From Tilletiopsis washingtonensis (taxonomy: Eukaryota; Basidiomycota; Exobasidiomycetes; Entylomatales), in the NCBI RefSeq assembly GCF_003144115.1, contig NW_020312014.1, forward strand, positions 346,620 through 410,619: 64,000 bases of DNA, in the 5' to 3' direction. The position numbers and the translations under genes are program-made. Positions 7,446 to 14,925 of the stretch are shown here, piece by piece. The stretch's first letter is position 1. Each line of letters begins with the position of its first letter. Below the pieces are notes generated by a model. That model was not told where the DNA came from, searched no databases, and saw only the letters and a list, made by a program, of their open reading frames with translations.

Positions 7446-9170
7446 ATGGCCGTTATTCCTATCGCCGGCGCCGTCCTGGCGCTGCTGGGCGTCGTCTTCC
7501 AGTTCGCGCTGCTGCCGCGCCTCACCGTCTTTGGCGTGCTCAGCCGCTCGCTCGAGAACAAGAGCAATGGCCGCTGCGAGATCATCCCTCGTGAGTGCAG
7601 CGCAGCGGATGTTCCGCTGTGAGGTTATTTCACTGATCATTCATCCGCGATGCAGAGCTCCAGGGCTGCGAGGACATGTGGCTGCACCAGGACACCGGCT
7701 ACCTCTACGCCGCCTGCTCCGACCCGCTCACGTCGCGCATGTCGTGGCTGCCCTGGTGAGTGCCCGAATGTGCAGAGCAGTGCCAGGCAGCTTGACTGAC
7801 AGTCTTACTTCTGGCTAGCCAAGACCGCCTTGACTGGAACAAGTATCCGGCGACGACCGACTACATCGCCGTCGTGGACACGCGGGGCAGCGGGCCGTGG
7901 TCCGAGCGCATCCGCAAGGTGACGCCCAAGAACTTCCCCGGCGTGCAGGTCAACGGCCAGCCGATCTACAACCTGCACGGCATCTCGGTGCACGTCGCCG
8001 ACTCGGTGCTGCCGGGCAGCAAGCCGACGCTCAAGTTCTTCATCGTCAACCACCGCCCGCCGGTGGATGCACAGGGCCGCATCGACGCCGCCGCTGCCCT
8101 CAAGTCCGGCGCCAACTCGACCGTCGAGCTCTTCACCACCACCGTCGGCAGCGACGAGTTCGAGTACGAGCACACGTTCGCGCACCCGGAGATCCGCACG
8201 CCCAACTCGCTTGCTGCGACCGGCAAGGACTCGTTCATCTTTACGAATGACCACGGCGCCAAGGTGGGCCACGGCCGCGCCCTCGACCTGCTTCTTGCGC
8301 GCTCCAGTACGTGATGTGTGGCGCCGCCATGCGACCGAAGCTCACGACAATCGCAGATGCCGGCTACTGCGACAAGAAGGGATGCAAGAACGCATTGAGC
8401 CCCCTGCCGTTCCCGAACGGCATCACGAACGTGAGTGCTGGCAATGTCCCAGAGTAGAGGAGTTGCTGACTCTTGCCACGTCTGCAGGGTGCCAAGGACA
8501 AGGAGTGTGAGTGAGGCGTGCGTCAGGCAGTCGCTTGCCTACTGATGCTTGTCGCAGACTGGATCGCATCCACCTCGGACGGCAAGCTTCGCCAGGTTGA
8601 GCTGCAGGCCGATGGCTCGCTCGTTCTTGTGAGTAGAGCCACGCTGCAGCAACAGACTTTCGCTGACGCTGCTCTCCCAGCTGGACGAGGTTGCGGTGAG
8701 GACCTCCCTCGCGAACGCGGGCGCACCCACTCAGCTGACATTTTCCTACTACAGACCGGCTACCCGATGGACAACCTGCGCACCGACAGCAACGGCCACG
8801 TCTGGGCGGCCAGCTTCCCGAAGCTACTCAAGCTTCTGCCGCGTGAGTGGCGCTCAACTTGCGCCCGTGACGTGCATCGCTGACCCTGCCGCAGACTTCG
8901 AGGACCCCGTCAACACGCACTCGCCCGCGCACGCCATGCGCCTGCGCCTCAACGAGGGCAAGGACGCCTTCTTCGGCCAGAAGTACTCCGTCGACCACGT
9001 CTTCGAGGACGATGGAAAGATCGCCGTGAGTCGCCCGCCCATGCCCAGCGGCTCCTGTGCTGACGCGCCCGCGACAGTCCGGCATCACCGTCGTCGTTCA
9101 CGACACGGACAAGCGCAAGCTGTTCATGGGCGGCGTGCAGACGCCGTACTCGCTCGTGTGCGATATCTAG
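7446..9170 (+). CDS. paraoxonase/arylesterase-like calcium-dependent hydrolase
   Basis: Protein of about 400 residues split over about nine exons. The first 25 residues are hydrophobic (IPIAGAVLALLGVVFQFALL), fitting the uncleaved signal anchor of PON-family proteins, so secretory-pathway or lipoprotein-like membrane attachment is inferred. The six-bladed propeller motifs are present: GCEDMWLH (calcium-binding Glu-Asp), LHGISVH (His of the catalytic dyad region), FFIVNHR, FTNDHG and MDNLRTDSNGHVW (Asp-Asn pair). These are the known calcium ligands of PON1, so an active lactonase/esterase is likely; the natural substrate is unknown. Two exons are microexons: 8488-8506 (19 nt) and 8681-8695 (15 nt). 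They are flanked by complete introns and needed to keep the frame. Confidence 0.85.
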
Positions 9171-13150: not shown

Positions 13151-14925
13151 TTAGCCGATGACGATCTTGTTCTCGTCGTCGTTGAAGCTGTGTGCCGGCA
13201 CCTCCAGGTTGAGCGGGGCCGGGCCCTTGCGTGCGCGGCCGCTGATGTCGTAGTGCGAGCCGTGGCACGGGCAGTACCAGCCTGCGAGAGGCAGTGAGCA
13301 TCGGAGCGTGCGTCGGCGTGTCTCAGCCGGGCTCACCTCCGTAGTCGCCAGCCTCGCCGATCGGCACACACTGCAGGAGCAAGCGTCAGTGATCTGCAGC
13401 GTCGGTGTCACTCGAAGTCAGTTGCGCGACTTACGCTGCGGAGGGAAGAGGGCGTCAGCATAGGCACAGCGCTCTTGGCACACGCCGAGACTCACCCAAG
13501 GTGTGTGCAGACGCCGAGCATGACCAGCCACTCCGGGCGCTGGGCACGGTCGCTGTCCTTCTGCGGGTCGCGCAGCTTGGAGATGTCGACGGCGTTGGCC
13601 TCGTCGATCTCGTCGGCGGTGCGGTGGCGCACGAACACGGGCTTGCCGCGCCACTTGATGATGGCGTTCTTGCCCTCGGGGATCGATGCCATCTCGACCT
13701 CCACCTTGGCGAGCGCAAGCACGTCGGCCGACGCGCTCATCGAGGCGAGGAAGTCAGACACCGTGGCACGCGCGCCCGAGGCGGCGATCAGGCCCATGGA
13801 GCCGACCATGAAGTACGAGAAGGCCTTGTTGCTGTTGACGTTCGACGTGCGGTACGCGCCAAAGTCGGGCACGGCCTGCAGCTTGCGCGACGACGTCGAC
13901 ATGAAGCGCGGCTGGCCAATCGTGGGGTTGGCTGAGAGGTCTGCTGTCAGCGCGTGCCCAAGTGCGTTGGTCCAGCAGGAGCAATTGAGCGAGCGCTGGG
14001 AAGCGTGCCGAGGCTGCAGGGCATACTGCCAGCGCCGAGGCGTGTTCGCCTTCTGAAGGGCCGCAACGTGCTAGCCTTGCGCTGCCAGCCAGTCGGCCAG
14101 TCGGCGGAGCGCTCTACCGGCCTTTGTGCGCGGCGAGTCCGCGCTCTTGGCGCTGCTCAAGCCCGCATCGCAACCTGCCGCAGTGATTCGGCACGCGTGC
14201 TCGAGCTCTGTGCAGGCCTAGCCAGCGCTCTCAAGCGACAGACAACTGGTGCTGCTCTGCGCTGCGCTTCGAGCTTCACGCGAATTCGCCCGTTGGGGGG
14301 TACCCCTGGCCCTCGGAAGATTCCCGCAGCAGCTGCGCGGGCGCGAGCGGAGAGGCGGCATCCTCCTTTGTTGAAGCGTCGAGCAAGAGCATTGAGCCCT
14401 CTGCGCAGCGCTTCGCAGCCGCCGAATAGGCTCTCGCGGAGCCGCCGCTCGAGCGCCACTGCCGCGCTGCCTGTCCTGCCCACCAGAGGGCTCACAGCGT
14501 GCAGCCTTGCGCTTCTAGGTGCAGTCTCTCTGCGCGATACCAAGCAACATCCCTCCATGCCCTGACATCACCACACCGGCTCCTGCTCGCCGCGCTACTC
14601 ACCGTTCACACCCGTGCGGACCACACCAGCAGCGCCAGCGCGGCTAACGGCCCAGCGCGGCACGGCGCCGGCGTCAGCGCGCACGCCCGGGCCACCGTGG
14701 CCGTGGGCGTCGTGCTCGTCGACAAGCGCACGAGCAGCGAAGTTGGCGGCCGAGATGGGCGCGCCGGCGGCCGAGACGCGCGTCGTCGGGCTGCGGGCGA
14801 GAGAGCGGGCGTCAGCGCAGGAAGATCGGCTGCGCGCGGCGCACAGCGCGGGCGCAGGCCGCAGCATGGCAACGGCAGACGCACGCCAGGTTGATGAAGG
14901 TGCGGGTGCGCAGGGCGGCGGACAT
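13151..14925 (-). CDS. RIP1: Rieske iron-sulfur subunit of complex III
   Basis: Ubiquinol-cytochrome c reductase iron-sulfur protein, 276 residues. Exons on the minus strand: 14925-14885, 14790-14603, 13931-13496, 13435 (one base), 13370-13337, 13281-13151; they sum to 831 nt, exactly 277 codons. The Ala/Arg-rich N-terminus ([14 protein letters not shown]) is a mitochondrial presequence. The motif [10 protein letters not shown] and the transmembrane helix ([16 protein letters not shown]) are followed by the head domain. The cluster ligands are CTHLGC and CPCHGSHYD, with the disulfide cysteines. The Gly codon of CTHLGC is assembled as GG plus C from the one-base exon. Intron 2 is 671 nt, ten times the local norm. 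Stop after KIVIG, as in other fungi. Confidence 0.93.
13435..13435 (-). other. RIP1: single-nucleotide exon of RIP1
   Basis: On the minus strand the order is CTTGG | GTGAGT...CTGAC...CCGCAG | C | GTAAGT...CTGAC...CTGCAG | TGTGTGCCG. The upstream intron (13495-13436, 60 nt) and the downstream intron (13434-13371, 64 nt) each have a strong donor, a CTGAC branch site and a CAG acceptor. Joining without the C breaks the frame. Retaining either intron puts in a stop or a frameshift. With the C the invariant Gly of CTHLGC is restored (GG+C). Sequential splicing (first intron, then the rebuilt C|GTAAGT donor) would avoid steric problems. Confidence 0.85.
13932..14602 (-). other. unusually long RIP1 intron 2
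   Basis: 671 nt between GTGAGT (14602) and CTCTCAG, in a window where most introns are 50-70 nt. It interrupts an Ala codon in the presequence region. I see no conserved RNA, transposon ends or convincing nested gene; open frames inside have the biased make-up of chance GC-rich frames. Confidence 0.7.

Follow-up and report, generated by a model that had tools for sequence, protein, structure and literature searches.

Structure of the RIP1 gene

The window analysed here, a 64,000-nt stretch of the genome of Tilletiopsis washingtonensis (Basidiomycota, Exobasidiomycetes, Entylomatales), carries on its minus strand RIP1, the nuclear gene that encodes the Rieske iron-sulfur subunit of complex III. 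As listed in Table 1, the gene was read as six exons that total 831 nt including the stop codon and encode a protein of 276 aa. The CTHLGC box occupies residues 218-223 of this reading, and the third base of the Gly222 codon within it stands alone between two short introns, each of which has its own full set of donor, branch and acceptor. The original prediction had placed two complete introns of 60 and 64 nt, each with a CTGAC branch and a CAG acceptor, around a single C in 13371..13495; its coordinates and lengths are correct, and the strand, which it left unstated, is minus. Its sum of 831 nt for six exons with the C kept was likewise obtained here, giving the 276 aa with an intact CTHLGC box. 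Two further RIP1 introns measure 94 and 671 nt, so not all introns of the gene are of standard size; the 671 nt of intron 2 (13932-14602, minus strand) stand out against the 50-69 nt at which the introns of this genome cluster. A genome search with a 42-residue Rieske piece returned one match only, and a second gene copy or retrocopy was rejected on this basis.

Table 1. Features of the RIP1 gene of Tilletiopsis washingtonensis; positions are those of the window
Feature	Position	Strand	Length (nt)	Details
RIP1 exon 1	14885..14925	-	41	Exon also in the model that reproduces deposited P0001
RIP1 exon 2	14603..14790	-	188	Exon also in the model that reproduces P0001
RIP1 exon 3	13496..13931	-	436	3' end ...TGC ACA CAC CTT GG at 13496
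RIP1 intron 3	13436..13495	-	60	Donor GTGAGT, branch GCTGAC, acceptor CCGCAG
RIP1 exon 4	13435..13435	-	1	One C, at position 3 of the Gly222 codon, CDS nucleotide 666
RIP1 intron 4	13371..13434	-	64	Donor GTAAGT, branch ACTGAC, acceptor CTGCAG
RIP1 exon 5	13337..13370	-	34	5' start TGT GTG CCG at 13370
RIP1 intron 5	13282..13336	-	55	
RIP1 exon 6	13151..13281	-	131	Includes the stop codon; contains CPCHGS
Alternative single intron	13371..13512	-	142	Donor GTCTGC; reproduces P0001; swallows introns 3 and 4, the one-base exon and VCTHLG

Identity of the protein and the deposited model

The 276-aa model matches both the transmembrane domain PF02921 and the Rieske domain PF00355 above cut-off (32.5 bits for PF00355, against a Pfam cut-off of 20.3) and contains both the CTHLGC and the CPCHGS boxes. 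Its best matches in the PDB are mitochondrial bc1 Rieske subunits, and the gene product is the mitochondrial complex III Rieske protein. Among the best 120 homologues of 8,000 scored, CTHLGC is present in 117, the three exceptions being P0001, which is the deposited model of the same gene, P0064 and P0107. The Cys and His of this box are taken here to be two of the four cluster ligands in RIP1.

The deposited T. washingtonensis Rieske protein, P0001, is 270 residues long and differs from the 276-residue reading only in lacking VCTHLG; as far as can be told, the deposited record and the locus described here are the same gene. Both models pass the NCBIfam TIGR01416 cut-off of 97.4 bits, the 276-aa model with 189.3 bits and the deposited one with 158.6 bits, so that TIGR01416 does not tell them apart. 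P0001 has no match to PF00355 at an E value of 0.001. When introns 3 and 4 and the one-base exon are exchanged for a single 142-nt intron (13512-13371), the resulting protein is identical to P0001 at every residue. Were the deposited model correct, this intron would remove VCTHLG to give a genuine 270-aa protein, and it is indeed a GT-AG intron, in frame and in exact agreement with the record. However, its donor (GTCTGC) scores -1.9, under all 290 candidate introns of the genome sample described below, a rank that arises partly by construction, as only donors with a purine (A or G) at +3 and a G at +5 were admitted as candidates; its length falls outside the intron size peak; and it costs the protein the match to PF00355 together with the Cys and His of the cluster-ligand box. 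The deposited model is for these reasons very unlikely to be right, and the sequence of P0001 is read as an annotation error that the one-base exon would have caused. The practical cost is that the public protein of this species lacks these Cys and His residues, the gene model having seemingly been unable to place the exon.

Several other deposited Rieske proteins are irregular. P0107 (Microbotryum silenes-dioicae) has a six-residue insert, CTHLGQSSTLGC, at the position of CTHLGC, and P0064 (Sporobolomyces salmonicolor) has lost the two residues TH, leaving VCLGC. Judging from the protein sequences, both are probably wrong models near an intron, and the damage may reflect introns close to this codon in basidiomycetes other than T. 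washingtonensis. In Rhodotorula and Sporobolomyces, P0080 and P0086 are broken at CPCHGS and P0035 has an insert directly after it, and CPCHGS would seem to be a second place where Rieske gene models go wrong. P0004 is recorded as a protein of the fern Adiantum nelumboides, yet along its length it shares 71% identity with the RIP1 of T. washingtonensis; the fern assembly would seem to be contaminated with fungal DNA. Five Rieske-like proteins (P0048, P0051, P0077, P0109 and P0118) bear the public name 'hsp70 nucleotide exchange factor fes1', probably transferred from fes-1, a name of the fungal gene.

Alternative splice-site choices

Splice-site choices were enumerated in the segment 13533-13337, covering single GT/GC-AG introns of at least 20 nt and two-intron choices with each intron at least 30 nt long. 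Two single introns keep the frame and both remove conserved residues; as no single canonical intron in this segment yields an intact motif, all were rejected. Exactly one of the two-intron choices gives the exact conserved peptide, and it consists of introns 3 and 4 around the C at 13435. A 48-nt variant of intron 3, with the donor GTGTGC at 13483, was rejected because the conserved peptide is not obtained. Nested removal, as in a stwintron, was rejected as well, since none of 4,442 nested combinations gives the conserved protein and removal of all 125 nt (13495-13371) shifts the frame. A zero-length recursive splice site is formed by an AG followed directly by a GT, with no base kept; at 13437-13433 the order is AG-C-GT, and this model was rejected because one base is retained. 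The base at 13435 is thus needed for the frame of the conserved protein, and the enumeration offers no canonical alternative to it.

These results bear on two further points of the original prediction. A different donor/acceptor pair giving the same protein, which would have told against it, was not found in the GT/GC-AG enumeration or among the nested combinations, where the one-base exon is the sole solution found. The claim that the C is needed for CTHLGC stands as regards the length of one base, which the frame requires, but not as regards its identity: any base at 13435 encodes Gly (GGN).

If no splice rule is imposed, four 124-nt deletions yield the exact peptide, none of which combines GT or GC with AG. 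One intron of 124 nt whose ends are non-canonical, either GT-CA or TG-AG, would join GGG to TGT and produce identical amino acids, but it would violate a near-invariant GT or AG, with scores of -17 and -22 that are low by construction, all candidate introns being GT-AG. It would also fail to account for the strong acceptor, the branch and the GTAAGT donor that lie mid-segment, a combination absent from 5.28 Mb of simulated sequence, and is considered extremely improbable. An error of sequencing or assembly is another conceivable source of the pattern, in that the loss or gain of one base beside one of the two outer splice sites would allow a single ordinary intron of ~125 nt to keep the frame. 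Such an indel would still require the internal acceptor, C and donor to have come together by coincidence, and candidate introns of about 125 nt are not in excess in the genome, so that this explanation is given very little weight. The one-base exon is very probably real as a feature of the structure of this gene, as judged from its sequence.

Intron lengths and splice signals in the genome

Candidate introns were collected by a scan for donor, branch and acceptor signals, not from transcripts, in the window and 20 other 10-kb pieces on both strands (528 kb); chance is expected to account for about one-fifth of the 50-69 nt class. In this class 200 candidates were observed, RIP1 introns 3-5 included, compared with an expectation of 44.6 based on five Markov controls, and at 75 nt or more there was no overall excess over the controls in the 528 kb. 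Because candidate introns peak at 50-69 nt with no excess from 75 nt, the 125-nt gap in RIP1 has the length of two introns: 60 and 64 nt fit such a pair, whereas 124, 125 or 142 nt fall where no excess is seen.

Splice-site scores were ranked against 290 candidate introns with RIP1 left out (293 under another way of removing duplicates). Intron 3 has its donor at the 90th and its acceptor at the 97th percentile, and intron 4 has its donor at the 34th and its acceptor at the 98th. The low score of the intron 4 donor is mainly due to the A at +3, GTA-starting donors being found in 15 of the 293 candidates and GTAAGT in three; in the genome's own donor model it drops to the 27th percentile once intron 3 is removed. 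No other donor in RIP1 agrees with the U1 consensus at each of the six intronic positions; over nine positions (-3 to +6) it has 6 matches, equal to introns 2, 3 and 5.

Introns 3 and 4 of RIP1 are the one pair of good introns (score of at least 6) lying less than 15 nt apart in the 528 kb, and ten simulated first-order Markov sequences of 528 kb each, 5.28 Mb in total, contain no pair at spacings of 0 to 30 nt. The simulated control covers score 6; at a looser score of 3, other candidate pairs 0 to 8 nt apart appear in four of the sampled pieces (L014, L017, L027 and L030). One of them, L017:1893-2014 on the plus strand, consists of two short introns with 0, 2 or 4 nt between them, the first case being an AG directly followed by a GT, and represents a possible recursive site or alternative donors. 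The window itself contains two more candidate microexons between short introns at 8431-8754 (plus strand), of 17-23 nt, depending on the choice of donor, and of 15 nt. A genome-wide search with the pattern CTGACN{5,25}YAGNGTRAGT, which is strict and would miss variants, gave 10 matches compared with 5 for the reversed control; a single match of the 10, the RIP1 site, has an upstream donor together with a downstream branch and acceptor.

There is no support for the pair having arisen from one intron by tandem duplication, as 58 of 300 shuffles score as high as the comparison of intron 3 with intron 4. In the same set of seven comparisons, made with single-base shuffles of GC-rich sequence, intron 3 is more like intron 1 than 299 of 300 shuffles and more like intron 2 than 290 of 300.

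Proposed splicing route

In the proposed route, two ordinary short introns would enclose the one base needed to finish codon 222 (Gly) in CTHLGC. A single base lies between the AG of intron 3 and the GT of intron 4, and from established splicing knowledge U1 and the factors that read the AG would not be bound there together. Because both sites cannot be bound at once, the two introns would leave one after the other by intron definition, for which both appear short enough. Sequential splicing, which the original prediction named beside recursive splicing, is thus implied on steric grounds, an argument also made in PMC4674806 and PMC8831610; the order of removal is not implied by it, since either order would leave a complete second intron. 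Removal of intron 3 first would re-form GGC|GTAAGT, and removal of intron 4 first would leave CCGCAG|CTGTG.

For plant microexons, the literature (PMC8831610, PMC4674806) proposes that the flanking introns leave consecutively; it reports that the downstream intron had more spliced-first reads in 32 of 49 microexons with all read types, and that a potato microexon loses its second intron first. By analogy with these plant cases, we lean slightly towards intron 4 of RIP1 being removed first. The full intronic match of its GTAAGT donor to U1, rare in this genome, would compensate for the near-absent exon. As given in PMC8831610, the donor after the one-base exon of plant VPS55 is GTRAGT, with a change from G to A at +3 that is called stronger; the agreement of the RIP1 GTAAGT with this donor is one case in a genome of GTG donors and may serve as a hint rather than a test. 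It can be speculated, with considerable doubt, that one-base exons arise repeatedly and independently under the same rule, whereby a maximal donor offsets the missing exon, and that the order of removal could also be fixed. Under this same doubtful reading, U1 would pair with the CAG of intron 3 across a bulged C, and the upstream acceptor would be masked until intron 4 is gone.

The exon could instead be facultative, with some transcripts skipping it or retaining an intron, so that a regulated unproductive product would be made beside the functional one. Skipping is predicted to shift the frame, with the reading running on to 307 aa, while retention of intron 3 would bring a stop after Gly222 (222 aa) and retention of intron 4 a stop after 230 aa. 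Intron retention around the VPS55 one-base exon is described for several plants in PMC8831610, and PMC4674806 relates that 33% of transcripts skipped a one-base exon made artificially in potato. On the other hand, RIP1 is a housekeeping gene, and the good signals on either side of the base would argue for efficient inclusion. Facultative use is on balance unlikely, and it would add to the reading of a one-base exon rather than exclude it; inclusion of the exon in the mRNA is probably constitutive.

Comparison with known one-base exons and related introns

The nuclear one-base exons on record in the literature searched are those of plant APC11 and VPS55 and of Fusarium CYP621A (PMC4674806, PMC8831610, PMC12940212); a mitochondrial one-base exon is described in placozoan cox1, with mention also in papers on fungal mitochondrial genomes. 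The literature searched, which covers few subscription journals, yielded no one-base exon in a basidiomycete or in RIP1 and no paper joining stwintrons with microexons. Within that literature the kind of exon is already known. New in RIP1 are the phylum, the position of the exon in a box of cluster ligands in a core respiratory gene, and the damage that can be seen in the public protein.

Fungal stwintrons (PMC5639578) are similar to the RIP1 pair in that two U2 introns are removed consecutively where one is expected. By our own reading of the definition given there, one intron of a stwintron interrupts a splice motif of the other with no exon base between them, unlike the arrangement in RIP1.

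Arabidopsis APC11 (Guo and Liu 2015, PMC4674806) resembles RIP1 in that the single base is needed for the frame, the public annotation was wrong and consecutive removal of the introns was proposed. Its exon is an A located 333 nt into a 422-nt segment and was studied with constructs in protoplasts, whereas both RIP1 introns are very short. PMC8831610 describes the APC11 and VPS55 exons as conserved across land plants by RNA-seq and RT-PCR, with splicing both with and without the exon in several lineages. It also reports that an aligner overlooked reads over such exons unless these were supplied to it as annotation.

A close likeness is Fusarium CYP621A (Nelson and Syed 2026, PMC12940212), whose authors count it as the second example and as the first from a fungal gene. 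As there, the RIP1 exon lies in a fungal nuclear gene and supplies a single base to a glycine codon within a conserved motif; the public transcripts of CYP621A are also wrong at the exon, in all cases but one (PMC12940212). CYP621A is, according to the same text, a rarely expressed P450 of an ascomycete, its exon being a G in mid-codon (AGGGT), in contrast to RIP1, a core respiratory gene of a basidiomycete with a C at codon position 3. The CYP621A exon is described in 20 Fusarium orthologues and in SRA reads of two species (PMC12940212), and the RIP1 exon is read here from the gene sequence. If true, a core respiratory gene, which should lend itself to easy assay, and a basidiomycete would join the three nuclear families APC11, VPS55 and CYP621A.
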